From the NCBI RefSeq assembly GCF_019649055.1, contig NW_026570256.1:62001-126000 (forward strand): a stretch of DNA of 64,000 nt. The letters are read 5' to 3'. Shown in pieces: positions 4,210 to 64,000 of the stretch. Under the pieces are notes generated by a model that saw only the letters and a program-made list of their open reading frames with translations, ran no database searches and was not told where the DNA came from. The DNA is from Paramacrobiotus metropolitanus. Its lineage: Eukaryota > Tardigrada > Eutardigrada > Parachela > Macrobiotidae. A program made the position numbers and the translations under genes. How positions within the stretch are numbered: position 1 is the first letter of the stretch; each line of letters opens with the position of its first letter.

Positions 4210-5615
4210 ATGTCTAGCGGAGGTTGTTGTGGAAATGGCGATCAAGTTCCGTCGCCGCTGCAGTCCATGTCGCTGCCACGGGAAAAAATTTTATACGTTT
4301 TGTGTCTCCAGCCGGAAAACAACGAGCACAATAAGCCGGGATATTTGGCAACAGTAGATGCTGATCCAGAATCCAAGAATTACGGAAAGGTATGTTGCTT
4401 TTCATTGTAATGCTTTCGTAATTTGTTGTCTCTCATCCTCATCCATTTTAGTACTTCGTTTGTACTTGTATTTCGATACTTATTAAAGGCATTTTTTTCC
4501 GTGTTGCTGTTACTCCTGTTCTCTGGAAAGTATTCCAGTAACCTGAGAATTAACTGATGTTTGGTACACCGTACACAGCGTACAGCACGTATTACTTGTC
4601 AATGGACCTGTTTGTACAAATATTTGTACAGCATTAAAGCTCAAAACATAGTTGGGAAACTTGGATTAAACAAAACGAACTGTCCTTTTATTATTTTTTG
4701 CGGTTGTCCTTTCGAGATCATCTGAATGATCACTATGCACTGCATTATGTTGCATAAAAGTGATATATTCACAACATAACTGCCATAGTAAATACTGGCA
4801 ACCAAAAGTAACAATTTTCCTTCATTACTTTTTATTAAAATTAATTCATTGCCCTTGATACACTTTCAAAACAATGAAAATTTCTGAGTAATAAACGCAT
4901 TATAAAGATTTTTGCTGACCTTGCCGATAGAAAAAGGTCTTGTGTATAAAATTTCTGGCATTATTTAAAAACGTGGGTATGCAATATTCTAAAGCCTAAA
5001 AATAACAAACAATGAAGAATTGCCAAAAAAATAGATGTGGAAAAAATAAATTTTTTTAGAAAAATTGAAAAGTAAAATTTTTTCCACAAATATTTTCGAA
5101 ACCCTATGCCACTTAATGATTATAATTTGCACTTTATTCGTTTTTTGGCGGATCTTACAATTCGCACCCGTGATACTGTACATACAGATAAGTTGCACTA
5201 TTCACGATATTATACGGCAGTTTTGCTGTCATACTATCAGGTGATCCATCGCCTGTACTCCTCGGATCCCCGCGATGAGCTGCACCATTTCGGATGGAAC
5301 AGTTGCGTCAGTTGCCGGCATCCGTCCATTACGCGCCGCTTCCTCATCATCCCCGGTCTGCAGAGCGGCAACATCCACATTGTCGACGTGGCTACCGCCA
5401 ACGCGCCGCGCTTACACAAAGTCATCGATGGTGCCCAGATTGCCCAGCGCTTTGACATTCAGTATCCGCACACCGTGCATTGTCTGCCGTCGGGAGAGAT
5501 TATGATCTCCTACATGGGCGATCAGCAGGGCAAGGGCAAAGGTGCCTTTCTGCTGCTGGACGGCGAGACCTTCGAGCCGAAAGGGTTGTGGAATAAGAAC
5601 AGCCATTATTTTTAA
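4210..5615 (+). pseudogene. selenium-binding protein 1 (methanethiol oxidase)-like, truncated
   Basis: Exon 1 (4210-4389) encodes 60 residues ending in the family-typical TVDADPESKNYGK. Exon 2 (5241-5615) begins VIHRL and continues DELHHFGWNSC, HTVHCLPSGEIMIS and GKGKGAFLLLDGETFEPKG, all diagnostic of the SELENBP1 family. The exons join in phase 0 across an 851-bp GT-AG intron. The protein stops 8 codons after this block, giving about 184 residues where the family usually has about 470, so the C-terminal half of the beta-propeller is missing. No further homologous exon is visible downstream. The family oxidises methanethiol to hydrogen sulfide, hydrogen peroxide and formaldehyde. With half the propeller gone this copy is probably a broken or partial duplicate. 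An unseen alternative exon after 5582 cannot be excluded. Confidence 0.75.
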
Positions 5616-23439: not shown

Positions 23440-26400
23440 CGGAATAAGGATGACGCAGGGCGGAGACTCGGTGGCCATTTCTAATAGAGCCCGGACAGTA
23501 ACCGATCTACACCGGAGCTTACGGATTGCCCGCCAACTAGCTGAACAACGCGGTGGCATAACCACAGACGACCAGGCCGTCCGATTAGACATGCATTACC
23601 GTAGGATTCGACAGATAATCCAGAGCCAAACGGGAGGAGCCGAACAACAGGTTCCCCAGCTCCGGTATCATGCGATGGCACTTCAGATCGGACAGGACGA
23701 CCAAACAACAGAAGTTTGGAAAACCATCCTCGACGGCAAAGAAGCCCTCCAAGGAATTTACGGACGCATAGCTGACGGAATCCGAGATCCCACTGAATTA
23801 GATCCAGTTCGGAAAATTAATGATCTCATAGCCCACATAGGGCTAACGGAAGATCTTACTCGGTACGGCTTGCCCACCACAGAGGTAGACAAGCACCGAC
23901 TCCGAACGACTATGGACCAGGTGAAGGCGGCCATCCTGGCGGAGAAAATTCAGACCCCACAGACGGATAACGCCCGACCGAAGACGTTATTACCAGGAGC
24001 AGTCGTGACTTCACCGATATTAACGCCTCCACCGACGACGACCACACAGGCCGTAACGTCGAAACCTTCATCACCCAACAGGGCAATCCTCTACGGCGGA
24101 ATCGCCATACAGGAGGCGGAAGACATCCTAAAACGGATTCAGCAACGCGCCGAAAAAGGAATCGAGCCGAACGTGCAGAGGATAACTTCCGAGTTTGCCA
24201 CTCACATACAACTTGTGAGGAACCTGATACAGCCAGGCACGGTCGAACCGGGAGTTCATTTTCAACTCGTAATGAATGGCATAAACCAGCTGCGAGATTA
24301 CGCCCGAAGCCAACGCCGACCACGGGACTCGGACACGGAAACTTCGGACGCATTACCGTCGACCTCATCGGCGGCGGAGGTGCATTCGGCGATGCGGAAA
24401 AGCCGCAGGGAAAAGATGTCCTCAATAATTACCGACGGATGGAATCTACTGGAACACCTCCAGCGATCCTTTGTCAACGAGACACCATCCGATGCCGAAA
24501 CTATTAAAGTGGCGAGACAGAAGATGAACGACTTGATGGCCTACCTGAAAAAGGCGGACCAGCTCATCGGTAAAGTCGAACCGACCGAGGCCGACGAACG
24601 ACAACTTAGGTCGGTAGTGGAACGGATCACAGAGATCCTGGATGCGGAACCCGCGTACACTAAACGGATCCCGACGCCGTCGCCACCTCGAAGAGCACCA
24701 CCGACCACAACAGCGGTGATGACTCTAGTCGGCACAACGCCCATGGATAACTTACCGGCCAACCTGGAAATAATCGCCCAAGCCGGACAAGATTTGTCGG
24801 ACATTTACTATCACCGACTTAGTCAGCCCACAACCGACCAGGAGGCAACCGACCTCGAGCGGATCGACCGAGCGTTACGACTCGATTCGGATTGGGCCGA
24901 TACACTAGGCTCATGGGGAATTCCACCACCAGGCCCGAATCGAGACCGGCTTATTGAAGCACTCCAGTCGGTAATTGACTATGCCAAGCGGTATTTGGCA
25001 AACCCGAACAAAGCGGGAGCGCCAATACAAACTCGCGAGAAAACACCTTCTCCAGTCCCATCACCTGGACTCGACGTCGAACTCCCATTTGCAGAACCGG
25101 TTGACCAAAAAGAAGTCAACATCGGGGATGTCGAAGATCAGTACCGAGAAGCGGTCGACGTCATGGAAAAGCTCGGAAAACAACTCCGGGAGCTCGACCC
25201 AAACAACGCCACAGAGAAACAAATGCGCGATGCCTTGGATCAGCAGTACAGCATCTGCTCAAGGCGGGTCGAAGACTTGTGGAAAATTCTCGAGGCTAAC
25301 CCACAAAGGGTTCAGCCGACCTCCACTCAGCCGCAGCATACTGCTCCACAACAACCGCTCGAGCCCACATTGGCAGAACAGCGCGAAGCCCTCAACGACA
25401 AGTTGGCTTGTACAAGGAGGATTGCCGACAGCCTGCAATGCCAAGTCGATAATATGGACGGAACAGATCCGACCATCCGCAATATTCGGACGGCAATCCG
25501 AGACCAAATTAGAGTCTCCCAGATGCACATTCAAGACCTGCAAGTCGACCTCGAAATCTTACGGCGAAAGGAACTCGAACAACACCGGAAAGAAGCGGAA
25601 CAACGCGCATCCGGTTCGCAACAGCCGAACACTTCGAGTCAACCGACTTCGACAACAGCTCGGATCCAACTCCAGCCGACCTCAACAGCAGGCTTGGCTC
25701 AACCGAAGCCGATGGAAAGGGCCGACCGGCCCATGTTTCCAGCCACACAGGCTCGGATCATGGAAGCCATACCGGACACTAACGAACTGTCGAGTACGGT
25801 CGCGCCACATATAGTCAAACTACTGGCTAAGGTAGCGGAACTCATCACAGAGATGAGAGCCCGCCGAAATTTTTGTGTCGATAACAGCCAAGAAACACAC
25901 GACTTGGATCGAGACTTCCTGGCTTGGGGAAACAGCGCTCGGTTTATACGACGACTCTGTCATCCGGACGCCCCACAAACAGCCACGACTCGGCAACACC
26001 TTATTCGAACCACATCATGGTTGGAAACGAGGGTGAACGAGTACGAGGAGGAAAAAGAACGGGACAAACAGAATGAATCGACCAACCTGGCAACAAACGC
26101 CATGGCTGAAGGTCGGCCGTCTCGGATCACAAAGATCCAGTCGGCTCGGAAACCGACCTTCGATTCCGTCCGACTTCCACCCCCGGCCCCATTAGCCAAA
26201 CCCGACCTCGAATGGGTAAAAGCAGTTAACACACAGTTACTGCGAGCGGACGCCGTCATCGTCGAACTTCGAAAGATGATGGACGAAACCGACCAAAGGA
26301 GCCCGCAGTACTGCCAGATCGACATTAAACTCGGACACTTGGAGAACAACGCCAAGGAAGCCCGATTTATCCTCCGACCAACAACAGTGTGGTCGGTAAA

Positions 26401-39551: not shown

Positions 39552-39982
39552 TGTCGTGTATAAGCGTTCACACCGGTTAAGGTTCCATGAACAATCTTTA
39601 CTCTTCCACGCCTGTAATGCTCAATCGGTAGGCAACTCTTATCTCAAACTGTAACAGATAAACTACGGTGGAAACGACGGACGACTCAGGAACACGAGAA
39701 CTCAGGAATCCCTAAGCAGGAGCACTCCAATCACAACTTCCGGTCGCAGTTCTGTGAGGATCAATAAGAGCTAGGACGATTGTGTCACGAGCAAACCTGT
39801 ATACTAAGCGATAATCCGGGAACGACTATGCACTTCCGTAGGAACAAGTATTGCTGTCTCTTTATTACAGTAATACACTTCACAGTCCACAACACTAGGA
39901 AATCGTAATTAGAAACAGTCTCAGAAGTCAGGTTAGCGACTGCCGATCCGACTGCTGCCGATATTAGTGACAACCAGAACTT
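39552..39982 (-). repeat. 3' LTR of element 2 (inner end not defined)
   Basis: These bases match 63470-64000 without any substitution seen, once the 103-bp MITE in the other copy is set aside. The LTR continues toward higher coordinates, but the inner boundary cannot be fixed because the partner copy runs out of the window. At 39865-39871 it has TACAGTA, exactly where the other LTR holds the MITE. Confidence 0.9.
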
Positions 39983-40768
39983 ATATAGACTTCATGTTAT
40001 GACATCATATACACCGCTAGTAAAAGAGAGCAGCAAATCACAGATAAGATTGACTAGATTATCTATTATATTGCAGGTGGAAGGTGGACAGTCAGCATCC
40101 GTACGTACATCCCGGCGTGTGATCCTACTCCCACACGTCACCCCCACGAACGATGCTTGGCCGTGCCAATATAAACAATCCATCCCGCAACATCCCAGTG
40201 CGATTGTGCACATCCATCCATCCTGATCCCGATCCACCGCACAATCCACGTGTCCATCCGATGCCCGATGTGACTGTACGCCGCGATTCCGAATGAGTTA
40301 GTGGGTGGAATCCTGGGCGAAGAGGCATCCGGAAGTCCACTGGTTTGGCAGGGCGGAGGTCGAAGGATCCAGGAAGGCGAACTATGAATTACCGATACTG
40401 TACCGTTTGAGTCTAGATGGTGGTGTTTATATGTACAGTATACGGCCGAAAGCTTTATTGATTGTGAAATCTAGAATCTTAAAATGTAATCATGTGCAAT
40501 TCTGTAGAACTATGCGTTAAACGAGCAAAAGCACCAAATCAACCAACTAGTAGTATTCTTACGAATTCTCGAGTACTACATCATCCAGTGATAACAGACA
40601 ACAATAACTAACAAGCAAAACGTCAGCACCAGCTTCGATACACAATAGAAACCAGTAAAAGAAGCAACAAGAAAATCAGTAAAGGTGGTGCACAAAAGAA
40701 CGCGACAAGCAGTAATACAGGGGAGATCAACGGAAAATAACAACAGACCGTCAAGAGGTTATTCAAGG
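39983..40768 (-). other. rest of the 3' LTR and 3' untranslated region of element 2
   Basis: No gene is visible. The LTR inner end and the polypurine tract should lie here; pyrimidine-rich + strand runs such as cctactcccacacgtcaccccc near 40124 are candidates for the complement of the tract. This cannot be settled without the full 5' LTR. Confidence 0.4.
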
Positions 40769-43604: not shown

Positions 43605-44281
43605 TTTAGTAACTTCTAGCATCAAGAGCGAAAAATGCCAAGGAAAAGGAAGAAATCCAGAAATACGCACGCAGCGAAAAACCACAACAAAAAGTGACAA
43701 GTTACACTGCGGTTAATTCGGCACCGACACCGGAAATGCGAAATTCAGGCAACCGACGAGTTGGCGGTTGACGGGCGACAAGCCGAATTTCACCGAGTTT
43801 CCAACACTTCAGGCGTCTACACTGAATAAAAGTCTCAACTGATTTGTCGACCAAGAGTTTGTAAAATAAAAGTATAAAAACTAGAATTTTCCGCAATATA
43901 CATCTGCACCGCGTAACAAATAGTTAAAAATGCAAACGGAAGGAGAAAACACGCGGCTGGGAAATATTCGGAACATAGACCGGAAACTGCATAGTTTCCG
44001 AGGCAGTTGCCAGCGCGAGGCGATTGACAGGCGACAGAATGCCGCATCGCAAGCACGGAAAATATCAGCTGTTTACTCATAACACTAAAAACGAAGAACC
44101 CCACAATATCTTATTCTTCTGTGGTGACGGTTTTCTTTGTTTATTTCTGTTGTTTCTTTATTAGATTTTAACCTACCCATTTCATAATGTCTGTACAGCC
44201 TAGAGAGCCATCGGCAGAAACGGATGCGATTGAACACGCCCGGTACTGGAAGAACGAACGCGGGAATCTGTGCAGTTTGCC
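43605..44281. other. short region between divergent accessory genes
   Basis: This is the intergenic stretch between the sense protein C (- strand) and the antisense gene (+ strand). It probably contains the promoter of the antisense gene. An acceptor-like tgttgtttctttattag lies at about 44147-44164 on the + strand, so an upstream non-coding exon is possible. A short + strand frame beginning at 44187 is out of phase with the main frame and is not taken as the start. Confidence 0.4.
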
Positions 44282-45573
44282 ATGGATGCACCTTTCACTG
44301 AAAACGAGACCGCGGCAAGCCGTCGTCATCTGGCTATGCATACTGCTGCACACGCCTGTATCCTCGAAGCTGATATTACCGGTTTTTATGTGGATATTGC
44401 GGCTATCAAGCAGTTTGTACAGGATATGCACACGGACTTCACCGCGGATCGCGTCGAAGTTTTCTTGGAAGACGCCATCAACGCAGGAATTCTACTGAAG
44501 AAGATGGCGCGCGACGGGCGCTTTGTTCTGGAAGTCGCGGAAGATGTGTACAACAACCGCCAGGTGAAGATCGTGGATACATACAGCAAACTTCGCTGTA
44601 TGATACGCGCAATTCTCTACCACGCACGCTACGCCATGAGCCGGCCAGAAATTCAACAATGGGCTACCGGGACCTACGACCTGCAGTTGGAAAACTACGA
44701 ATACTGGTTCAACCGCGGCCTGCATCGGCTCCTGGAGAAGAAACAAGTCGTGATGGTCTACGGGAATCTGTATGTCCACAGCTGCATTGATCTGTGGCTG
44801 CGCAGCATTCGCGGCTGTGGTCTATGTGACACTTTGGCGCAGACTATCAGTGAGTATTTTGTGTGATTACTAGTAACGAATTTGAAAAGAGCACATACTT
44901 TGTTTTCACGATCGTAGTACTGTAAGTCAGCTGTGCAAAGTTGTACTGGATCTGAAATACACACACTGCACTTTTCCCGCATTTTGCATAACGACAGTGA
45001 GTTGCAGATGTGAAGATGGCCACTCTAAAGATCGAAAGGAACGGACGGGAAGCGGAACAGCATGTAACCGACGCCAGCTTCGGCTATGTTGGCGAAGACG
45101 TCGATTTAATCATCGACGGAGTGATGGAGCGCTTGGACGCCATCGAGCCAGCGAAGAACAATACCATCGGAGCCAACCTGCTTGTTCGCTCCAACAAGGA
45201 TGCTCGGATCAAGCGCGAGCCAATTATCACATTAAGTCAACTGAAAGAGATGAATGCCCGTCCGCGATATGTAGTGGGCAAAAAGAACGAACAGCGTGAA
45301 AAGGCCAAGAAGAATAAAGAACATGGCGCGACAAAAGCTGAAAAAGCCAAGGCCAAGGCTGAAAAACCAGGCGACGATCACGCCGAGGACATCGACGAAC
45401 TACTGCGGATGGTCGAGAGCGAGCAGCACATCATGAAGAACTGTAAGGCGCTGGTGAATACTCTAAAGGCACGCGTATACACCGGCATCGATCAGATCAA
45501 ATACGTCCGTGAAGCTTTGGAACAACGCATGGCCAACATCAACAATGCCAAGGAAGACGTGGATTTAGATTAA
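44282..45573 (+). CDS. antisense spliced gene inside element 2, 377 aa
   Basis: Two exons, 44282-44849 and 45008-45573, join in phase 1 across a 158-bp intron with GTGAGT donor and TTGCAG acceptor, giving 1134 bases (377 codons plus TAA). The start ATG is in strong context (gccATGg). Two successive segments (residues about 30-90 and 95-165) have a helix-turn-helix-strand pattern like winged helices, for example FLEDAINAGILLKKMARDGR and WFNRGLHRLLEKKQVVMVYG. A Lys/Glu/Ala-rich helical region with KAEKAKAKAEK and a C-terminal coiled coil follow. A DNA-binding or linker-histone-like role is inferred from pattern only. It is transcribed against the retroelement. It could be a captured host gene, an antisense regulator or part of a nested insertion. 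Confidence 0.65.
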
Positions 45574-45984
45574 TTTACAGTGTTTTGTGCATCTCCGGCG
45601 GCTGTTGAATAATTTGTTTGGTAATTCAGCCGGTTGTTTGTATATCCTGGTTGTCTTTTAACTTTTGGATCTGAGTTTTTTAATTTTGTTAACCTTGCTC
45701 ATGTAATTTCTAATTGTCCTTGTCGTGTAGATCTCGTCATTTGAGTTTAACAAGCGAATTTTAATAAGAGGATATAATTGCTGCGCATAATAGTATTACA
45801 GGAGGTGGATAAAGGAAATTAACCTGAGCATTGTGCACGATGAGGCCATAGTACACGATAAGAAAAGCGATCATGCTTTTATGGTCTGTACAGATTTAAT
45901 TCCCAAAAATGCAAAACATCCACGTAGATCGGCATCCACGGAGACCAAAAAGAGATAAAAAGAAATTTTCTAAGTAACAAAATT
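45574..45984. other. 3' flank of the antisense gene
   Basis: T-rich on the + strand (tgtttgtatatcctggttgtctttt), as in 3' untranslated regions. No AATAAA is seen immediately after the stop. No further gene is recognised before the tRNA-like array. Confidence 0.4.
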
Positions 45985-46058
45985 GGTCTTAATGCGGAGT
46001 TGAACCTGAGGTCTAGCTGCACGGCTACATCCTGTTCTTGCCACTACGCCAGCGTGAC
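45985..46058 (-). ncRNA. tRNA-like unit 1
   Basis: A box TGGCGTAGTGGC (46040-46051) and B box GGTTCAACTCC (45996-46006), at tRNA-like spacing. Upstream on the - strand lies TATATACACATGGCGCTTCC. The anticodon arm does not fold cleanly. Confidence 0.45.
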
Positions 46059-46244
46059 TACGCACATTTCCAAATAATTATTTAAACACCGGAAGCGCCA
46101 TGTGTATATATGATGTGACTACAGTATGAACAACTTGTACGTTGCTTTTCCAGTTGAGTCACGGAGTTGAGTATCTCTCTCTGGCATAATTCCATTCCAC
46201 AAATATACACAAATATAGAACAAAAAGTTCTGAACATGCAACAT

Positions 46245-46315
46245 GCAACCTGAGACTATCAAAGAGGTAGTGATTGTAATGAATGGCCGTCATGCCTAGC
46301 CACCGTACTACGAAG
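46245..46315 (-). ncRNA. tRNA-like unit 2 (degenerate)
   Basis: Only weak A-box (CGTAGTACGGTGGC) and B-box (CAGGTTGCA) traces remain. It is counted because of its position in the periodic array. Confidence 0.25.
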
Positions 46316-46496
46316 TCATTCGATTGCAAGTGAAGATACGAGGATACGCACTGCCACTTCAAAATATACGCCTTTATGCGCCGCTCTTCCAATTTAATTC
46401 TGAAATTCCAAGGAATAATGCCAGTACTTTTCCAAGGCGGTAATAAAGATATAAAACAGGAAAAAGTAAATTTCCCAGAAGGTGCAAGTTGACTGT

Positions 46497-46570
46497 GTGG
46501 GACTTGAACCCGAATCCTTTTAGTTTCCCCGTTGCAGTAGTTCAACGGTGCAAAGCACTACACTACGACG
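46497..46570 (-). ncRNA. tRNA-like unit 3
   Basis: A box TAGTGTAGTGC (46555-46565) and perfect B box GGTTCAAGTCC (46500-46510). The middle forms a perfect 6-bp hairpin CCGTTG/CAACGG with an 8-base loop (AACTACTG), in anticodon-arm position. Confidence 0.5.
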
Positions 46571-46710
46571 TTCTACGACGGCAACTTTTTAAATTGCTCG
46601 ACCGAAATGATCGCGAAATTATCGTCGTCAATGCCAACACGTTATTGCACATTATCATAAAAATATAAACCCGAAAAAGAAGGTTTTCAAAACTCGCAAT
46701 TTTAACTTTA

Positions 46711-46784
46711 GGGCCTTGAACTCTAGGCCTGTGAAGCAGTTGGTAAACGAGAATTCCCGGCCTAGCCACTACGCTACGAGGTGT
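46711..46784 (-). ncRNA. tRNA-like unit 4
   Basis: A box TAGCGTAGTGG (46766-46776) and B box AGTTCAAGGCC (46712-46722). The conserved T-rich tract follows downstream on the - strand (46656-46682). Upstream is TATATACACGACATGGC followed by CCGGTGTC, resembling the element's own LTR end and PBS. Confidence 0.45.
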
Positions 46785-46920
46785 TCTACGTAAAAGCCCA
46801 GTTAACTTTGACACCGGAAGTGCCATGTCGTGTATATACTGAATAACAGTGCATGAGATGGTTAAATTCAGCATTCGGGCGCGAAAATACCAAAAATAAA
46901 GTTTGTAAGTACAAATTTCA

Positions 46921-46993
46921 AGCATTTCAACTCGAAAGCGTAGGCTAGCTCCTTCTTGTGACTCAGCAAGTCAGCCACTCTACTACAAATGGA
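46921..46993 (-). ncRNA. tRNA-like unit 5 (degenerate)
   Basis: The A box TAGTAGAGTGG is good and the B box GAGTTGAAATG is poor. A partial second A-box-like copy follows near 47030-47045, suggesting a partial internal duplication. Confidence 0.3.
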
Positions 46994-47212
46994 CCCGAGA
47001 CTTCAGTAAGTAATTTCCTTGATTATTTACTCGGCCACCACTCTACAAAATTATCGAACCGAAAACAACATCATAGTGCCCACTTGATTTTATAAGACTG
47101 CTTCTTTGTAGCAATCACAAAATTCTAACCACCGTCACTAATATCTTAAGTAGGGTACAAATAAAAATATAAAAACCAAAAAGTAAGTTTTCAGAAAATG
47201 CAGTTTGGTTTT

Positions 47213-47286
47213 GAGGTGTTTCGAACCCGAAACCTTCAAATTGACACATTGTCGTAGTTCAACAGTTCAAAGCACTACGCTACGAC
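47213..47286 (-). ncRNA. tRNA-like unit 6
   Basis: A box TAGCGTAGTGC (47272-47282) and B box GGTTCGAAACA (47217-47227). It shares GTTGAACTAC in the middle with unit 3. The conserved T-rich tract follows (47158-47187). Confidence 0.5.
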
Positions 47287-47485
47287 ATTCTACAAGACAC
47301 CGAAAATGCACCATATCGTGTCATGTATATAGTAATAACACGGCCGTACAGAATTCTCACATCCGACTCCTTCGCTCATTCATTGTGATAGCAAAATTCA
47401 ACCCAACAACACCAGAATATTACTACACCAGAGCACAAAAATATAAAATCGAAAAAGAAGGTATAATGAAATGTGCATTAATTAT

Positions 47486-47564
47486 CGGGGTTTTGAACCC
47501 AAGGCCTTAGATCAACCGGGTGGTCACAGAAATTGGCCACTCGACCACTACACTACGACGGTGT
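47486..47564 (-). ncRNA. tRNA-like unit 7
   Basis: A box TAGTGTAGTGG (47545-47555) with an extended D-arm-like GTCGAGTGGCC, and B box GGTTCAAAACC (47489-47499). CCTTCTTTTTCG follows on the - strand (47450-47461). Confidence 0.5.
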
Positions 47565-47724
47565 CTGACAAGATGGACCAAAAACACAACATTAGGGAGC
47601 GCAATTTGTGCGCCGCTCACCGGGAAGTAGGACAAAATCAACACCAGCACGCGAAATACGTCGGTACATACTAGTATAAATATATAACGTCAAAAAAGAA
47701 GGGTTATGAAAATGCTTTTAAAAT

Positions 47725-47804
47725 TTCTTGGGATTGGAACCCAGTATCTAGCGGGGAGGCGTTTGACATTTTTCACGTACTAGACCACTCGACTACGCAA
47801 GACA
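47725..47804 (-). ncRNA. tRNA-like unit 8 (type II, Ser/Leu-like)
   Basis: The D-arm TAGTCGAGTGGTCTAG (A box at 47785-47795) and CCCCGC variable-arm-like segment before the B box GGTTCCAATCC (47731-47741) make it the most tRNA-Ser/Leu-like unit. A TATATAA word lies about 20 bases upstream. The acceptor stem is imperfect. Confidence 0.5.
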
Positions 47805-47979
47805 TCGACGTAAGCTACTGTTATATAATATGGTACAGTTAACAGCACAAAAGTTCTGCTTTTCGTAGAGATCTCTTTCAACGTAGAGGAGCCCATAATT
47901 CACATTATTTGACCCAGTGTATAAAAATATAAAAACATAAATAATAAAAGCCAAAAAGGAAAGTGTATTCACAAAATTG

Positions 47980-48060
47980 CACTCTCATGTGGATTAGAAC
48001 CTCCGACCTATAACGGGGCTGCAACGGGAGCCACTACTACAACAGCGGGGTCGCTCTACG
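47980..48060 (-). ncRNA. tRNA-like unit 9
   Basis: A box TAGTAGTGGC (48030-48039) and B box GGTTCTAATCC (47991-48001). A TTTTATATTTTTATAC tract lies downstream on the - strand. It is the first unit in the direction of transcription. Confidence 0.45.
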
Positions 48061-48600: not shown

Positions 48601-48783
48601 CTATGGATTCTTCAACGGAAGCTTAGAAACAGCCTCCTTCACTGCAATCCTTTTCCGCTCGAAGCGATGCTGGGCCTCAGTACGTTGAGCCATCTTCTGC
48701 GCAACAGATGTCGTCCATTCCGAAACACGGTTTTGCAGCGCCTGATTGGCCGCTTCCTTTTTCTCAGAGGCTGGAGGAGTCAT
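48601..48783 (-). CDS. small helical accessory frame, 60 aa
   Basis: ATG 48781-48783 lies directly after an acceptor-like ttattttaataag. The 60-residue product (MTPPASEKKEAANQALQNRV and on) is a charged, almost continuous helix rich in Lys, Glu and Ala, plausibly a small coiled coil. Position and acceptor suggest a spliced RNA product of element 2. The function is unknown. Confidence 0.4.
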   Translation of the reverse strand: MTPPASEKKEAANQALQNRVSEWTTSVAQKMAQRTEAQHRFERKRIAVKEAVSKLPLKNP

Positions 48784-49358: not shown

Positions 49359-49912
49359 TCATTTCCAATAATTATAAGGAATTCCACGCAAGGCATGACG
49401 CTGAATGACCAAATGCTTGCGCTTTTTCTTCGGAGACTCTGGAATCGGAGGCTTCACATTTACCCAGAGCATCTCTACTGGCAGAATCTTAGTTGGATCC
49501 AACATGTGGGGTTTCTCATTCCACCAGTCAGCAAAATCTGGGTCAGGTCCTTTCCAGTCATCCAGGCTGCCAGATCCCCATAACTTCGGGACAGGTGGTT
49601 CATATGGCGTCCGAAACATACGGCCGCAAGTGCCCGGGCCATAGTTCTCACATTCCACACAGCAGAGATCGTGTTCAATGCGCTTGTTTTCTTCTTCCTT
49701 TTCGCGGCGGCGACGCGTACGCGGAGATTCTGGTTTAGGTGGCATCGGCGACAGACCCAAGTCTTTACGAATGCGATCCATTGCGGCACGGACAATCAGA
49801 GTGTCAGGTCCAGGCCAAATTCCGCGACGGACATAGTAGAACTCCGTCTGATCCGCACGAATCTCGTCCTCTGCTTGCTTGACGAGCATTTCATATCGTT
49901 CGTGATTCTCGA
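49359..49912 (-). CDS. accessory protein B, Cys-containing, about 184 aa
   Basis: The open frame is preceded by an acceptor-like tctcgtgtattgtag at about 49913-49927, so the exon probably starts near 49912 with VENHERYEMLVKQAEDE. A basic helix (SPRTRRRREKEEENKRIEHD) is followed by a Cys cluster (LCCVECENYGPGTCGRMF) that may bind zinc. A Trp/Pro-rich segment and a basic C-terminus follow, with stop at 49359. No family is recognised. It is one of several spliced-looking sense frames. Confidence 0.5.
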
Positions 49913-50646
49913 CTACAATACACGAGAATAATTGTCGATAGGAAGGAACTCAAGAAGGACGAAAAGTCCTTCGAATACACATATGGCAGATAATACGAAG
50001 GTGAGGCTGAGCTTGTGCGTAAAAAGAAATACTTACTACACAGCTGCTGCGCATAGTCGTCTGAAATGATACGGCCAAAGCTGCTTTAATAACTGAAGGG
50101 ACACGTAAAAGTATCCATTTTCAGGAGAAAATGATTATAGCTTCAGACTTCGAAAAGAAAAGTTTACATTAGAAAATCAAAAGACTGCAGGCATGGTAGG
50201 GACAGGACTAAACATGAAATTTCGGACACACTGAACAGCAGACCGGAACTGGAAACAGCTGAGTGCCCCCAAACTGCCACTGCCCTAACACTTGGCGGCA
50301 TACAGGCGGTTGGTACAGCGACTGTCATTTTCTGCATGTAAAGACGTGAAAACTCAGACTTTTCCCAGAAATTCATAAGCATTTGAGCTTTTTCTCTTCT
50401 GTAATATCTCTATGAGTTTACTAAACCAACCAGGACTGCCATATATCTGATTTATTTCATTCCGTCTAACGAACGACAATCGAAACCGCGATCTCTGATT
50501 TCTTGGAGAATTATGGTAAGCAAACCACATACAATACAGCTTATACACCGTAACACCATGCCAACAGGCTAATTGTAAAACTAAAACTAATTGGTCATAA
50601 AGCATAAAAGCTAAGATTGTACACTGTATAGATTTACAGAAGCCTT
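49913..50646. other. non-coding stretch between accessory frames
   Basis: Acceptor-like sites for the frame ending at 49359 lie near its left edge. Otherwise nothing is recognised. Confidence 0.4.
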
Positions 50647-51822: not shown

Positions 51823-53493
51823 TTAAGCAGTACTGCAGAGCGCACAGATTTTACAATATTTCAGCAGGTCATACTGCATTTCCGGCCAGAAGAATCTGAG
51901 CTTGGAATATAGGTACTCATACGGAGAAATAGCGCTATGATATTTGTGTAGCAATCGGCGATGTACCGACTCGACTAGAATTTTACGCCACTGGAAGGGA
52001 ATTAGTATTCTGGGAATTCTTTTTGCAATATCTTCTTTTTCTCCGTAATGACAAATAACGCCATTGATTTTTAGGACTAAAGGAAGATGCCAAGCTGCAT
52101 AACGCGATTCTTCCACTGTGTAATCTCCGTCGACTACAGCGTCCCATAACATGGTGTCACTACACTCCAATTGGCGATACTTCCAAAATTCCGGTTTGTC
52201 CAGAGCGTCGTCAGTGACTACGCCCTGAGGCCAGAACTGCTCAACCGGACGCGCCCAAGCCGGGGCTGGAATGAACCTCTCTTCAGGAAAGACCACAGGT
52301 ACAGGAGAAATTTTCATCTGCTGTACTGGCACAATTTCCATAGCATTACAAGTAATCAGTGTATTACTTGCAGATGTTTCAGCCGACATAGAGTTATTGT
52401 CCCCAGACTGGGATACATTCGGTGTGACTGAATCCCGACCATTGGTTGTCATTCTCTTTTTATTATCCACCGATGGATCCCTTTTACGCTTTTTCTCATT
52501 GATTTCATTGATGAACCTCTCTACAGGTTTCACCACACGCCCAGAGCGGGTCTTCAGAAGCGGTACCTCTTCCATTTGTTTATCCAAGTATTTTGCATAC
52601 TCAGCATCAAGGCGCGACGATGCTGAATGAACGGACGGGATCACCGGCGGCGGCGCGGGTGCCTCAACGATTTCATCGGGACATTCCTTCTCCACACAAT
52701 CGAGCAACTTAGGTAAGTGCTCGTCTTGTAAAATTATGTCAACGTCGCGGAAATTATAGGGCTTTAGGCGACTAACATGAACTGTGTCTATTTTAACATT
52801 CCCACGTCTGTTACTTTTAACTACATAATGCACCGGCCCCGACGGGCGAACAATTTCCCATCCAGCTGTCCAACGGGGCATAAGCGACGGATTTTTGCCC
52901 ACCTTTCTATGAAGCACGTAAACCAAGACTTGGTCTCCAGTTTTATACGTGGCATGTGAGATATTTGCGTCGTAACGAATTTTGTCTTTTAGCTTATGGC
53001 GGAACTCCTCTGCATTCACCAAGTCCAAAGCCTCACCAAGGCCGCGCTGCATCTGCTGCACAAAAACGTGAGCGGGGACAACAAAGTCTTCTTCAAAAGG
53101 GAGGAAGTTATTCACTGGTAAGCGCATCTCGGTGCCGTGCATCATGAAAAATGGTGTGCGGCCCGTTCGTTCCACAACTTTACTGTTAAAGGCAGCGCAA
53201 AGTGCCGGGAGGAAAATATCCCAGTCATTTTGTTGTTCGTTAACATATTTCGCCAACGCCTTTTTAATTTCTCCCACCCGTTTTTCGACAAGTCCGTTGC
53301 CTTGCTGGTGTCCTGACGCTGTCGGTGCGTGAGCAACACCAGCGAGAGCTAGAAGCTCTCGAAACATTTCTGACATAAAGTTACTGCCTCGATCCGACGT
53401 AATGTGTATCGGCATACCAAAAACGGTTAAAATCCTTTTATGGAAAAATAATGCCAAGGTAGCAGCATCATTTCTCTCAACTGCTTCTGCCAC
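51823..53493 (-). CDS. integrase core, C-terminal region and extra HHCC module of element 2
   Basis: Coding starts in this register near 53540 (AVDYGSKY). The integrase core has ITSDRGSNF and GNGLVEKRVGEI, so the second Asp and the Glu of the DDE triad are present. The first Asp is in the preceding frame (IDVAP). An SH3-like C-terminal region (TYKTGDQVLVYVLHRK to RRGNVKIDTVHVSRLKPYN) follows, then a disordered linker. The C-terminal 110 residues repeat the HHCC arrangement: FQWRKILVESVHRRLLHKYH, FFWPEM and CKICALC (51826-51992). A zinc module after the integrase C-terminus is unusual. Relative to the RT frame the register changes by -1. Confidence 0.85.
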   Translation of the reverse strand: MAEAVERNDAATLALFFHKRILTVFGMPIHITSDRGSNFMSEMFRELLALAGVAHAPTASGHQQGNGLVEKRVGEIKKALAKYVNEQQNDWDIFLPALCAAFNSKVVERTGRTPFFMMHGTEMRLPVNNFLPFEEDFVVPAHVFVQQMQRGLGEALDLVNAEEFRHKLKDKIRYDANISHATYKTGDQVLVYVLHRKVGKNPSLMPRWTAGWEIVRPSGPVHYVVKSNRRGNVKIDTVHVSRLKPYNFRDVDIILQDEHLPKLLDCVEKECPDEIVEAPAPPPVIPSVHSASSRLDAEYAKYLDKQMEEVPLLKTRSGRVVKPVERFINEINEKKRKRDPSVDNKKRMTTNGRDSVTPNVSQSGDNNSMSAETSASNTLITCNAMEIVPVQQMKISPVPVVFPEERFIPAPAWARPVEQFWPQGVVTDDALDKPEFWKYRQLECSDTMLWDAVVDGDYTVEESRYAAWHLPLVLKINGVICHYGEKEDIAKRIPRILIPFQWRKILVESVHRRLLHKYHSAISPYEYLYSKLRFFWPEMQYDLLKYCKICALCSTA

Positions 53494-53525
53494 AATATAT
53501 TTACTCCCGTAATCGACGGCAATAA

Positions 53526-55937
53526 TTATGTTTTGTTCCCAGATTCCGTCGTTGGAAGAGCCGGAGCGACATCAATAGCCCACACCAACCGAGGAGGAAC
53601 TGTCGGGTTTGACTGTAAAGCGCCAGCCGGAGCTGTAGCAGGGACATTCTGAGCAAGACATGCCGCACAGGATGCACAGTAATTCCTGACTGACTCAAAC
53701 ATCCGTGGCCAGTAGAAGTACTTATACATGCGTTTATAAGTAGCCAAGACTCCCAAATGGGCAGCTAGGGGTGAATCATGATTATCCTGCAGGAACTGCA
53801 GACGCCAGTGTACGGGCACGTACATACAGTAATAAATTTTGCGATTTAATTCGAACTTATAATATACAACGCCTTGCTTAACCACAAACTTATTCAGGTG
53901 TAACTGCTCGTGCTCTGACATCTTTTCCTTTTTGTTTTCTAGGAGCAGCCTCCATCGAACAATCCGTGCATCCCGCGACTGTTCTTCCGCCCAGTAGGAG
54001 GCTTTATCGTCCGTGATCAACTTCTGAACCTTGTCCGCGTCAAAGGCTCTCATATCTTCCTCCGAAATGGCTTTTACTTCGGCCGACATCATCTCGAAGC
54101 GGATATCCGCGTAATCTCTTTCCAAGACCGCGAAACAGCATTCAATCATTGCTGCGTCACCGGCAAAAGGGTAAGTTTGCCGATAATCAAATTCAATATC
54201 GGAGTCATCAGAATCAGGTTCCGGTTGTTCTCCTGGGTTTCTGCTTAAAGCGTCAGCTATAACGTTGTCTTTTCCAGGAATGTGGACTGGTTTAGTATTA
54301 AACTGCTGGATATACAACGCCCAACGCCCAAGACGGCCAGCGGCATCGCGCATATTATTAAGAAAAACTAACGCCTGATGATCCGTTTGGACTTCAAACT
54401 GGTAGTCCGACAGATAATGTTTCCATTTCTTTAACGCGCAAATAACTGCATAAGCTTCAAGTTCTGTAGGAAAGTAGAGCCTTTTCTGTGTCTCTGTTAA
54501 TTTGCGACTTAGGTACGCGATAGGCCTCCAATTCGTTGCCACATCCGTCGGTGTATCTCGAGGGCACTGCATAAGTACTGCGCCAACAGCGATGGTGCTG
54601 GCATCCACGACAACACGGGATAAGGCCTCTGGATCATAACGGGCCAAGACCGGCGCCGTCACCAATGCTTCCTTCAATTGTTCAACCGAATGACGCTGTT
54701 CTGTTCCCCATTCAAAGGTAACTTTTCTCGGAATAAGCTTCTGTAAGGGTTCCGCGATCTCTTGGAAATTCTTAATGAATTGGCGATAATACCCGACCAT
54801 GCCCAAAAACCGTAATATAACTTTCTTATCTTTTATAGGGCCAAATTCCTTAACTGCCTGCATCTTCTCTGGATCTGTGCTGATACCAAATTGATCTACT
54901 GTATGTCCTAAACATGTAATGGAATTGACAAACAATTCTGTCTTTTCAGGGTTGATGGTCCAGCCACACTCCTGGAGCCTCAGAAAGAGCTCCTGTAAAT
55001 CCCGCATGTGATCCGCTAGGTTTTTACTGAAGACAATGATGTCGTCTATGAAAACGAGGACGTTTCTCCATTTCATGTTTGCAAGCGTCAAGTCCATTGC
55101 ACGCTGAAAGGCAGAAGGTGCATCCTTCAACCCAAACGGTAAGACTTTATATTGAAAAGTAAACTCTTCTCCAACCATCGTTGTTTTACAACGGTCTTCC
55201 GGTTTAATCTTGATCTGCCAAAACCCCGACTTAAGATCTATTTTGTTAAACACCGTGGCTTTATCTAATGCATTAAGGATATCATCCACTCTGGGCAAGG
55301 GATAGCTACTGCCCATTAATCGCTCATTTAGCTTTCGAAAGTCCACCGTTAAACGACGAGATTTATCTTTCTTTTTTACTATACAAATAGGACTTCCCCA
55401 CGCCGAGTTAGTCGGTTCAATGATACCATCTTTAATCATTTCTTGTGTTTTAGCCTGGAGCCATTTCCTATCTTCAAACGATGTGCGGTACAAAGGAGTT
55501 CGGACCGGCAAACTCGTTCCTGTGTCAACTGAATGCTCGTAAATGGTGCAACATCCGACTGGACGAGCTCTAGTGGGCAACACTGATTTTGCCTGATAAA
55601 AAATCTGTTTAAGCTCTTCTTTACTGGGACAAATATCTCCCACTTTAATTTTGGCAAAGGTTTCTTCCGTTTCAGGATCGATGGCGCTGGAAGCAGAAGG
55701 CTGCAACTGCATCGCGACACATTCATTAATTTTCTCTAGGACTGGAACGGCTTTCTCATCACGTGGTATGCCGCAAGACTGGTCATGATAATTCTCTTGA
55801 AACTCCAAGGAGTCCATTTGGTATACTGCGTCAACAAGCGCAACTTCTCCCAGGTTAGTTTCTTCATTTAAAACCAGTGGTTTGTCAGAAACGTTGACAA
55901 CACAGACCCGACAGTTACCGTACTCGTTAAGCGTCAA
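53526..55937 (-). CDS. RT, RNase H and HHCC module of element 2, 803 codons
   Basis: The domains are complete and ordered. The pre-RT strand region (VCVVNVSDKPLVL) is followed by RT with WGSPICIVKKKDKSRRLTVD, FIDDIIVFS and LGMVGYYRQFI. RNase H has VVVDASTIAVGAVL, LEAYAVICALK, TDHQALV and DALSRN. The HHCC zinc module has HWRLQFLQDNH, AAHLG and CASCAAC (about 53640-53815). RT catalytic Asp residues and RNase H acidic residues are visible. The frame begins by overlapping the end of the preceding one (TTTTGA at 55934-55939), again a -1 change, and ends inside the integrase core. Confidence 0.9.
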   Translation of the reverse strand: MTLNEYGNCRVCVVNVSDKPLVLNEETNLGEVALVDAVYQMDSLEFQENYHDQSCGIPRDEKAVPVLEKINECVAMQLQPSASSAIDPETEETFAKIKVGDICPSKEELKQIFYQAKSVLPTRARPVGCCTIYEHSVDTGTSLPVRTPLYRTSFEDRKWLQAKTQEMIKDGIIEPTNSAWGSPICIVKKKDKSRRLTVDFRKLNERLMGSSYPLPRVDDILNALDKATVFNKIDLKSGFWQIKIKPEDRCKTTMVGEEFTFQYKVLPFGLKDAPSAFQRAMDLTLANMKWRNVLVFIDDIIVFSKNLADHMRDLQELFLRLQECGWTINPEKTELFVNSITCLGHTVDQFGISTDPEKMQAVKEFGPIKDKKVILRFLGMVGYYRQFIKNFQEIAEPLQKLIPRKVTFEWGTEQRHSVEQLKEALVTAPVLARYDPEALSRVVVDASTIAVGAVLMQCPRDTPTDVATNWRPIAYLSRKLTETQKRLYFPTELEAYAVICALKKWKHYLSDYQFEVQTDHQALVFLNNMRDAAGRLGRWALYIQQFNTKPVHIPGKDNVIADALSRNPGEQPEPDSDDSDIEFDYRQTYPFAGDAAMIECCFAVLERDYADIRFEMMSAEVKAISEEDMRAFDADKVQKLITDDKASYWAEEQSRDARIVRWRLLLENKKEKMSEHEQLHLNKFVVKQGVVYYKFELNRKIYYCMYVPVHWRLQFLQDNHDSPLAAHLGVLATYKRMYKYFYWPRMFESVRNYCASCAACLAQNVPATAPAGALQSNPTVPPRLVWAIDVAPALPTTESGNKT

Positions 55938-57714
55938 AACGCCGTCCAGTATACCGCATTTTTATTCGATTCGGGTATTTTTCCTTCGTAGAGAAATGGC
56001 TGAGTATATAAATACTCATCCTGGAACTCCATGAATTGTTCATCAGACATAAACGTCGTTGCACGAATAATTCCCTGCGAATGGGGCTGGAAAACCACCG
56101 GTGAAGCCGGAAATAGCTCCATTTTAAAACAGTCAATTGGGCCAGGTTCAGGCTCGAAACGGTAAATGTCTTGTTCCGCAGAGTTGATTTCCGCCTGTGC
56201 CTGTGCTTGTTTCAGGTGGGCGTCCCTGTATGCCAACTCGATGGCATCCTTTGTGTACACACATGCCGGGATTTCTGTGGACTCACGAACATCCTGCGAC
56301 CGTTTCGGTAAGTGTTTTGTCACATGCTGTTGTTGTACCGATACCGGTTGTACTGTCTCAGCAGACATCTGGCTTGCCGCCTCGCGCTCTGCATATTCGC
56401 GCTTAATTCGTCGACTGTAACTAGACTTTTTGCACCGGGGTGAACTCCTTCCCGAACCTTCCGACACCTGTTCAACGTTTCCCACGGTAGGTTGTGCTGA
56501 GTTAACACTTGTAGACTCTCTTAACACCTTCTGCCTTTGTATTTCATTCCAGATTACCCACTGTTCATTAATATTCACATTCGTGGGCGTATCATATGTT
56601 GCTCTGACCGCCGGAGGTACCAAATTCGACATGTGCTGACTGGTTAGCGTATATTCTTGCGGTGAGTTACCAAGAGTTTGAGAAGCAAGTACTCTTTGCT
56701 TCTCCGCTTGTTTATCCTCGTAGGAAACCGGGCAAGGACCGATATCAATGGGCCGCATGTCATCAGCAGGGATGAAACTGCCGTTTTCGAATTCACCTGC
56801 TGGTGCCGGGTTATCCACCGAAAAGGTAACTTTGCGTTTTCCAGTCGCTTTCTGAGCGGCCAACTGCTCATTTCTTTTTAACGTTCCGAAATGCCGACGA
56901 TCGTTTACAGAATTTCGACACATATGGCAATTCTTTTCATATCGTTCAATTTCGATTATACAATCAGGCCAGTAGAACAGTTTGATTAAATATGGATGCA
57001 GTCTCTCCCGCGGGCCATACACCTGCTTATGAATTATCACTTCGTGGAAGCAGGCTATCAGCTTCTGCCGCCATTGGTGTGGTACATAGATCCTCGGACA
57101 TGCACCAGAGTGATCGGGCACTCTGCACAAAATTCCTTCACAGATTATCATTCGATTGATTTCGTACTTGGTATAATTGGTATTAGCGTGCGAGGGTTTC
57201 TTATACATTTGGTACCATATCCGACTGTCGACGCACATCTGTTGAGTTTCACGCCAAAACTGTGGATCTCTGAAACGTTGCTCCGAAGGAAACAACTGTT
57301 TATCCTGTGGCCTATCCATCGGTGACATCCACCTCTTAAACTCTGGATTCCGTGCCATGTACGACGGATAGTCGTGGACTTCATCAACGTCTCTGTGGTC
57401 ACGTTCAACAGGTATGACTTTTAGAAGCTTATTGTCCATACTAAGACATTCCACTGATTTAGACGATTTTTCTAGGACGCCCATATACAAATATTTTGCA
57501 GCAGGGTGCTGTTGTAGGACCGCGTCCAAGGATGAAATCTGAATGGGAAGTTGCAAGGGATCGTCACCCCCACGAACTTGACGTGAGCCAGAGTTGGGCA
57601 CGGGACTGACCGATGCCGAAGACGAGGTACTCGGACTGCCCGCCGGCGACGACTGGCAGATTTTTTCTTGCTTAATTTGCGGCTGGGAAGACGCCTGTTC
57701 TCTCCCCCCCACGA
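55934..57714 (-). CDS. pol spacer with an additional HHCC module, 592 codons
   Basis: The N-terminus is Ser/Pro-rich. Residues about 150-275 hold DPQFWRETQQMCVDSRIW, then PHQWRQKLIACFH, LFYWPDC and CHMC (about 56920-57075). This is the same zinc-module plan found in pol and at the integrase end, and it is closest to the C-terminal copy (PEFWKYRQLECSDTMLW). The rest is disordered with Gln/Glu-rich helices. It lies between the protease and RT frames. The frame is entered by a -1 change at a run of seven G near 57708-57715. Confidence 0.6.
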
Positions 57715-62497: not shown

Positions 62498-62937
62498 CTT
62501 ACAGTACGTACAGTAACTATTGTGCTACTGATTACCGTAAGTTCCGAAAAATTGCGGTTGTGCAATTTACTTTCACTAGACAGTCCTCCTTTGAGGTTTG
62601 AACTGCTCAGTGAAAAATTTGAACACAGCCAACCTTTGCGGTTCGACTGAAGATCTAAATGCTAAAATTACTTTGCTGCACTTTGCGTGCTGCTGTAATT
62701 TTAACTTACAGGTCAATCTTACGGTACACACAGTAACTATTGTGCTACTGCTTCCCGTAGAATCCTGATATTGCGATTGTGCAATTTGGTTTCACTACAC
62801 AGTCCTCCTTTGAGGTTTGAACTGCTCAGTGAAAAATTTGAACGCAGCCAACCTTTGCGGTTCGACTGAAGATCTAAATGCTAAAATTACTTTGCTGCAC
62901 TTTGCGTGCTGCTGTAATTTTAACTTACAGGTCAATC
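62498..62937 (-). repeat. 220-bp tandem duplication in the leader, each copy with a splice donor
   Basis: Copies 62498-62717 and 62718-62937 are closely similar. In each, the - strand reads GACCT|GTAAGT (GTAAGT at 62704-62709 and 62923-62928), a consensus 5' splice site. They lie between PBS and gag, where retroviruses place the major donor for spliced RNAs. Each copy also has a near-palindromic TTAACTTACAG segment. Confidence 0.75.
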
Positions 62938-63451
62938 ACCGTTTGCCGGTGTTTACCTTTTTACGATCAACTATCTCTAGCTGCTGATTTTGGCTACCGC
63001 TTGCGGCTTGCCTTTATCAAGCTGCTGGAGATCGTTATCTCACCTGGCCACTGACAGTGGCTCAGTGTTTGCTATCTGATCTATCTGCAGGCCAGGCACA
63101 CTGACACTACAGTTTACCGTTTATTCCCCGCGGTTACTGCTTTGCGCAGACAACCCGGAAATTACCCACCAAAACACCACTCGATTCGCACAGTCGACCT
63201 TTAAGGTTTCGACTGTTTTCCTACGGTCCAAATTAAATAATTTTAATTTAATTGGCGAGGAAGCTCACCAGTGAGGAAGCTCACCAATTGCGAGGAAGCT
63301 CGCCAAAATAAGTTAGACTAGGCCAGATCTGGAGCGCTGACCTCCTTCGGCGTACCTTTGCGGTTCGACGCCTTTCTGTACGGACCACTTTACCAATAAA
63401 TTACCACCAAACTTTCCACCAATAATTTTCTGTTACATCGGGAAAATTAAA
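62938..63451 (-). other. leader of element 2
   Basis: Non-coding. It contains three copies of a GAGGAAGCTC word on the + strand (63256-63304) and hairpin-prone words of the CTTTAAGGTTTCGAC / CTTTGCGGTTCGAC type, also seen in the duplicated unit. These are possible packaging or dimer elements. Confidence 0.5.
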
Positions 63452-63469
63452 AGACACCGGTGGGCGCCA
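63452..63469 (-). promoter_or_regulatory. primer-binding site of element 2 (tRNA-Lys-like)
   Basis: On the - strand TGGCGCCCACCGGTGTCT follows the LTR end CGACA directly. The first nine bases, TGGCGCCCA, equal the complement of the 3' end of metazoan tRNA-Lys (including CCA); the rest diverges from it. A tRNA-Lys or a related tRNA is the likely primer. Confidence 0.65.
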
Positions 63470-64000
63470 TGTCGTGTATAAGCGTTCACACCGGTTAAGG
63501 TTCCATGAACAATCTTTACTCTTCCACGCCTGTAATGCTCAATCGGTAGGCAACTCTTATCTCAAACTGTAACAGATAAACTACGGTGGAAACGACGGAC
63601 GACTCAGGAACACGAGAACTCAGGAATCCCTAAGCAGGAGCACTCCAATCACAACTTCCGGTCGCAGTTCTGTGAGGATCAATAAGAGCTAGGACGATTG
63701 TGTCACGAGCAAACCTGTATACTAAGCGATAATCCGGGAACGACTATGCACTTCCGTAGGAACAAGTATTGCTGTCTCTTTATTACTGTATTGTCGAGTC
63801 AACTTGCCACCTTTTCTTACAGTGAGTTATATGCTAATCGGATACGACTCACTGTAAAAAAAGGTGGCAAGTTGACTCGACAATACAGTAATACACTTCA
63901 CAGTCCACAACACTAGGAAATCGTAATTAGAAACAGTCTCAGAAGTCAGGTTAGCGACTGCCGATCCGACTGCTGCCGATATTAGTGACAACCAGAACTT
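63470..64000 (-). repeat. 5' LTR of element 2 (cut by the window end)
   Basis: Matches the 3' LTR at 39552-39982 with no substitution seen, and contains one insertion, the 103-bp MITE at 63786-63888. The outer end lies beyond the window. Confidence 0.9.
63786..63888. mobile_element. 103-bp Tc1/mariner-type MITE
   Basis: A nearly perfect palindrome: terminal inverted repeats of about 42 bp beginning CTGTATTGTCGAGTC, with one mismatch and a centre of about 19 bases. TA flanks both sides. It has no coding capacity, so it would move with a transposase supplied in trans. The other LTR has TACAGTA at the same place, which equals TA, three terminal bases of this MITE, then TA. Confidence 0.85.

Follow-up and report, generated by a model that had tools for sequence, protein, structure and literature searches.

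What is a row of tRNA-like promoters doing inside a large LTR retrotransposon? The window (the whole 64,000-nt stretch of DNA from the tardigrade Paramacrobiotus metropolitanus that we analysed) raises this question because a reading made from the sequence alone described, within element 2, about nine Pol III units on the − strand at intervals of 210–290 bp. Nine units are indeed found, with steps of 211–273 bp. We favor, with moderate confidence, the interpretation that the array comprises about nine short Pol III noncoding RNA genes owned by the retroelement, with RNAs that would act in trans. Each unit would be transcribed by Pol III from an internal promoter, consisting of an A box, usually a B box and, in several units, an upstream block. 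Since every unit has its own promoter and its own terminator, a separate RNA of ~95–165 nt, ending at its own T-run, is to be expected from each. These RNAs may act in trans, for example on host silencing or RNA-sensing factors, or through base pairing of their unit-specific middles.

Element 2 and its array

Element 2 is a 24.6 kb element on the − strand, running from position 64158 to 39552 in window coordinates. It belongs to the Ty3/gypsy-type LTR retrotransposons: it has direct LTRs, a CAGG target-site duplication at both flanks, a tRNA primer-binding site (PBS), and pol domains in the order RT, RNase H, then integrase. RT-RNaseH ahead of integrase is the Ty3/gypsy order. Among the best 120 of 4634 matches, identity to its RT reaches up to 44%. 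Element 2 is young, as indicated by the aligned LTR pieces, one of 321 bases with 1 mismatch and the other of 277 bases with 3 (99.7% and 98.9% identical, respectively). The 5′ LTR exceeds the 3′ LTR by 100 bp, and it alone contains a foldback (inverted repeat) at 63781–63893, which is a small transposon-like insertion acquired after integration. The features of the element are:

63470..64000 and on to 64158 beyond the window, − strand: 5′ LTR (LTR alignment)
63453..63469, − strand: PBS, its first 13 nt complementary to host tRNA-Lys(CTT)+CCA
53526..55961, − strand: ORF with RT, RNase H and integrase zinc-binding domains (domain search)
51823..53571, − strand: integrase core ORF (domain search)
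49359..49949, − strand: accessory ORF upstream of the array (coding by codon-position pattern)
45001..45573, + strand: antisense accessory ORF, convergent on the array (coding by codon-position pattern)
44234..44866, + strand: second antisense accessory ORF (codon-position pattern; weak linker-histone match)
39552..40140, − strand: 3′ LTR (LTR alignment)

The linker-histone match of ORF 44234–44866 scores 21.6 bits, under the Pfam cut-off of 22.4. By eye, a small ORF lies near 48780–48600, between ORF 49359–49949 and the array. The leader that follows the PBS (62500–63470, − strand) has a tandem duplication with a period of 219 and, by eye, recurring short hairpin-like motifs (CAGTCGAACCGCAAAGGTTGGCTG and variants); these repeats are possible packaging signals. 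The window also contains element 1 (12055–37009, + strand), another LTR element of ~25 kb with many large ORFs and with 439-bp repeats that are 98.9% identical. Two further ORFs of the window match Paramacrobiotus metropolitanus proteins best, 5076–5615 at 78% identity over 90% of the query and 689–1276 at 48%.

The nine units occupy 45954–48042, all on the − strand, i.e., in the sense of the element, with ORF 49359–49949 on one side and the two antisense ORFs on the other. Successive A-box anchors are 245, 237, 273, 238, 268, 211, 255 and 258 bp apart. The parts of a unit follow a fixed order: A box (TAGYGTAGTGG or a near form), unit-specific region, B box (GGTTCRANTCC, of which U5 and U8 have weak forms), trailer, and a T-run resembling CTTCTTTTT. 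The ends of the units (A-box side, B box and trailer) are similar from one unit to another; the middles differ, each being conserved for its own unit. Several units also have a conserved block ~45–60 bp upstream of the A box. By eye, a further T-rich block (TTTATATTTTTA) lies ~10 nt past the terminator in several units; perhaps it is a backup terminator. The units, from A-box anchor to terminator, are:

47951..48042, − strand: U1, kept in 19/20 loci
47689..47797, − strand: U2, kept in 17/20 loci; lowest conservation of all units, 0.47
47450..47560, − strand: U3, kept in 17/20 loci
47176..47287, − strand: U4, paralogue of U7, kept in 19/20 loci; possible pseudoknot-like helices
46890..47049, − strand: U5, long, without a good B box; 11 instances kept
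46671..46781, − strand: U6, 25 instances; helix with covariation
46459..46570, − strand: U7, 17 instances kept
46221..46315, − strand: U8, degenerate B box and conserved middle; 17 instances kept
45954..46057, − strand: U9, kept in 20/20 loci

The high count for U6 arises because several arrays carry a second U6.

Promoter-like boxes, copies and selection

The sequence criteria for Pol III type-2 genes are an A box, a B box and a downstream T-run at set distances. In 45985–48060, the strict form of this combination occurs three times in sense and never in antisense, whereas 200 dinucleotide shuffles gave a mean of 0.005 and a maximum of 1; with the loosest thresholds, there are six sense and no antisense occurrences (shuffle mean 0.45, maximum 3). 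The boxes are therefore more frequent than in shuffled sequence, a test that the sequence-only reading had set. The strict scan of the whole window returned five sites on the − strand, four in the array and one stray at 24200, and none on the + strand, which is the sense strand of element 1. A good B box is present in seven of the nine units of the window copy, as had been claimed. The two exceptions, U5 and U8, are a point against the interpretation that we favor.

The same features recur in other copies of the array. Among 162 units from 20 loci, which were found by homology, are related to each other and hence are not independent, A scores of ≥7/8 were obtained for 151 (8.7% of control windows) and B scores of ≥8/10 for 128 (4.2% of control windows). 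In 94.4% of these units, at least five T residues in a row come after the B-box position, versus 11.2% of 977 control windows. BLAST matches of <60 nt (<50 for U2) had been excluded beforehand from this count. The strength of the B box differs between units, with scores of ≥8/10 in 19/19 instances of U1, 17/17 of U3 and 20/20 of U9, and in 11/17 of U2, 3/17 of U8 and 1/11 of U5.

With the array as query, 138 matching pieces were found in the 169.8 Mb genome and grouped into at least 40 places (59 candidates, of which 40 were scored). A 27-nt array motif occurs at 50 places with ≤2 mismatches (reversed control, 0). Fourteen of these places are additional to the 40, and six of the 14 also have a U7 match, giving 46 firm array places, or 54 when motif-only places are included. 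In the 20 places inspected out of the 40, the window's own and 19 others, the array is present every time with 6–10 recognisable units; the expectation that other copies of the element carry it thus holds. Two main unit orders were seen, U1 U2 U3 (U6′ U4) U5 U6 U7 U8 U9 and U1 U2 U3 U7 U8 U6 U4 U9, and losses occur. Downstream of exact PBS matches (n = 59), an array place lies 11–37 kb away in sense for 41, with 34 of these at 14.4–17.5 kb; the other 18 have no array place downstream.

The array is noncoding and is under purifying selection. In an alignment of eight copies, mean identity to the window copy is 0.81 for units and 0.72 for spacers. Identities by segment were calculated for the eight copies and six of the nine units, leaving out U2 (poor alignment) as well as U5 and U8 (B box unclear). 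Within the core, the terminator is most conserved (.963), followed by the B box (.926), the A box (.911) and the middle (.858). Upstream of the A box, identity is.838 for the block at −60 to −45 and.815 at −20 to −1, with.705 at −45 to −20 and.670 in the distal spacer (−120 to −60). Downstream, it is.778 for the trailer,.820 for the first 20 bp past the terminator and.765 from +20 to +60. The trailer is no more conserved than the 20 bp past the terminator, and we count this against our interpretation. The order of terminator, boxes and unit-specific middle is that expected for separate transcripts under selection, which argues for Pol III noncoding RNAs with a trans-acting role. Since selection keeps the units in copy after copy, this family of very large retrotransposons probably makes its own set of small noncoding RNAs. 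Small regulatory RNAs, one of the roles first suggested, are still the best role for the units, with transcription predicted from their sequence.

Mismatches in the array do not follow a period of three, with rates of 0.205, 0.231 and 0.204 by codon position in the parts of other copies that BLAST could align, and the longest stretch without a stop is 135 codons. In the five neighboring ORFs, two of them antisense, mismatch across 18–19 other copies is 0.354–0.428 at third positions and 0.063–0.119 at second positions; both antisense ORFs show coding selection across 19 other copies. Because codon periodicity is absent from the array and the flanking ORFs, including the antisense ones, have a coding pattern, we conclude that the array is noncoding and the element ambisense.

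Convergent genes on either side make a DNA boundary the main rival explanation. Here, the array would act as DNA: boxes bound by TFIIIC/Pol III would separate the sense block from the two convergent antisense genes, or would set chromatin or nuclear position, and any RNAs would be by-products. The coding selection on the convergent ORFs agrees with such a role, as does the conservation of A and B boxes. Pure TFIIIC insulation, one of the roles first suggested, fits less well: the highest conservation is that of the terminator, the unit-specific middles are likewise conserved, and U8 retains a mean identity of 0.88 despite its degenerate B box. Moreover, a strong block would presumably impede full-length genomic RNA as well. 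We regard a boundary as rather unlikely.

Selection also bears on whether the units are a SINE-like or tRNA-derived repeat that multiplied within the element and is copied passively. The units are paralogous (U4 and U7 are 80% alike over 71 nt), and their order and number vary among copies. Alignment to host tRNAs, which the sequence-only reading proposed, beats the maximum of 50 shuffles in four of the nine units (U1, U2, U3 and U7), mostly over the boxes; the other five do not exceed it. However, passive copying does not agree with purifying selection on the units, and the dispersed copies outside the host element that define a SINE were not seen: for U7, the unit searched singly, all 40 scored matches (49 candidates) are at arrays. 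A dispersing SINE-like family is not supported by the U7 matches, and we consider passive multiplication highly improbable.

Structure, primers and pairing

ARAGORN called no tRNAs in the window or in any of the 20 array loci, and did call them in the host tRNA loci that we fetched. Rfam searches of the window and of 19 further loci gave no match at gathering score; the permissive matches numbered three, with E-values of 4 to 5. With no cloverleaf and anticodon detected by either program, the units do not class as tRNA genes. The description of anticodon arms that differ from unit to unit is correct in that the middles are unit-specific; "anticodon arm" is inapt because no cloverleaf was found.

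The folding stability of the units is at the level of shuffled sequence (mean z of −0.28 to +0.48 over nine unit families; host tRNAs, −2.04), and we reject strong RNA structure. Two helices were considered individually. For the U6 helix, across all 25 instances, 94.9% of cells are paired, there are two double-change pairs, and 0/500 shuffles reached the covariation score. The overlapping helices of U4/U7 were assessed in 31 of 36 sequences (one U4 and four U7 were left out); 91.5% are paired and 1/500 shuffles reached the covariation score, but double-change pairs are at shuffle level, and helix 1 has its outer pair open in 21/30. An open covariation scan of eight of the nine families was not clearly above its column-permutation null, U1 falling below and the others slightly above. 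Given shuffle-level folding and a covariation scan near its null, the unit RNAs, if made, would not be strongly structured, a further point against the interpretation that we favor. These results weigh on the possibility that the units are Pol III-made microRNA precursors, like those of BLV, foamy viruses or the MHV68 TMERs. The promoter logic is alike, and the cluster is likewise inside a retroelement; however, the stable hairpins of viral precursors are absent and Rfam is silent at gathering scores, making this explanation very unlikely.

It had also been proposed that the units supply primer RNAs. In a comparison using 36 host tRNA loci taken from 60 listed, the PBS is complementary to one of the two fetched host tRNA-Lys(CTT) genes over 13 nt and to the other over 9 nt. 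Pairing between a unit and the remainder of the element, including the PBS, never extends beyond 11 nt, the same as for shuffles. The units are therefore rejected as primers. The longest same-sense copy of a unit elsewhere in the element is 13 nt (U9), equal to the U9 shuffle maximum. The U8 core occurs at 12 places in the genome, 11 of them within arrays, and the U9 core at nine, all within arrays. Host targets of these two cores were thus not found save for one place with three mismatches, which, like the chance-level pairing with the element, counts against our interpretation.

A motif resembling the LTR end and PBS lies ~45–60 bp before A boxes, in the window only at U4, U6 and U9:

46810..46836, − strand: LTR-end+PBS-like motif upstream of U6 (50 genome places at ≤2 mismatches)
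46086..46108, − strand: shorter form, upstream of U9 (by eye)
47296..47330, − strand: degenerate form, upstream of U4 (by eye)

The motif TATACACGACATGGCGCTTCCGGTGTC, matched before U6 with one mismatch in the window copy, has 17+8 nt in common with the LTR-end/PBS junction (TATACACGACA followed by TGGCGCCCACCGGTGTC) and is one base short of the complement to host tRNA-Lys(TTT). Such motifs could serve internal priming: by binding tRNA-Lys(TTT) in the spacers, they would start extra minus strands on a very long template, and the Pol III units would be secondary. The likeness to the junction and the number of genome places speak for this idea. Against it, a genome search allowing up to one mismatch did not find the full-length Lys(TTT) form behind the LTR end, the motif is confined to three units of the window, and an upstream promoter block is also plausible at its position. 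We consider internal priming very unlikely, and take the motif to be a putative promoter block sharing its origin with the LTR end.

Relation to known systems

To our knowledge, the retroelements known to have Pol III RNA clusters are a few vertebrate retroviruses, whose clusters act on the host. The systems nearest to the array are the BLV cluster, the MHV68 TMERs, which sit in a row, and the Helenus/Cassandra TRIMs; none shows the array's anatomy. In the literature, we found no LTR retrotransposon that carries Pol III units as an internal array, although subscription papers and preprints were mostly outside the search, so an earlier description is possible.

BLV contains a series of several Pol III type-2-like units that are independent of each other and have separate T terminators (PMC13192155), and foamy viruses make Pol III miRNAs (PMC7693620). 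The array resembles BLV in being a row of such units within a retroelement. It differs in that the BLV units form hairpins and have the terminator between the A and B boxes, whereas the array has its terminator after the B box and lacks stable hairpins; it also resides in a 24.6 kb Ty3-type tardigrade element rather than a virus. The MHV68 TMERs are several Pol III genes with tRNA-like promoters in one virus (PMC8223928). They have tRNA-like structure and miRNA hairpins, neither of which was found in the units, and belong to a DNA herpesvirus.

Helenus, Ajax and Cassandra (TRIMp3) share with element 2 the presence of Pol III promoter sequence in an LTR element; Helenus has conserved A and B boxes, and its tRNA-like part lacks complementarity to the PBS (PMC10886601). 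TRIMp3 elements are ~0.3–1.3 kb and non-autonomous, with the promoter inside the LTR, and are thought to make their own template RNA. Element 2 is not one of them: it is 24.6 kb long and coding, pol included, and its many units lie internally. In size and extra genes, it is similar to the large gypsy-like elements Burro and Ogre; the review of these giant elements does not describe Pol III units, and "tRNA" and "polymerase III" appear zero times in its text (PMC6431247). Curation of tardigrade transposable elements is also among the nearest literature (PMC11071193).

A broader proposal seems to us evenly balanced between right and wrong: a giant ambisense invertebrate LTR retroelement would encode several different Pol III noncoding RNAs, members of one gene family and only weakly structured, that are alike at their ends and unit-specific in the middle. 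They would form an RNA toolkit directed against the host or serving the element's own replication, with an upstream promoter block that may be common to the LTR-end/PBS junction. If so, LTR retrotransposons can bear dedicated noncoding RNA genes. From a selected nine-unit array in an LTR element of a tardigrade, it would follow that the Pol III strategy arose beyond vertebrate retroviruses, and without hairpins. The genome holds roughly fifty arrays, which fall into two subfamilies and provide material to test which parts matter. In the second subfamily (L024–L031), matched unit parts are ~70–85% identical to those of the window copy, and ORF 49359–49949 is ~66–69% identical, with one 79-bp piece at 76%.
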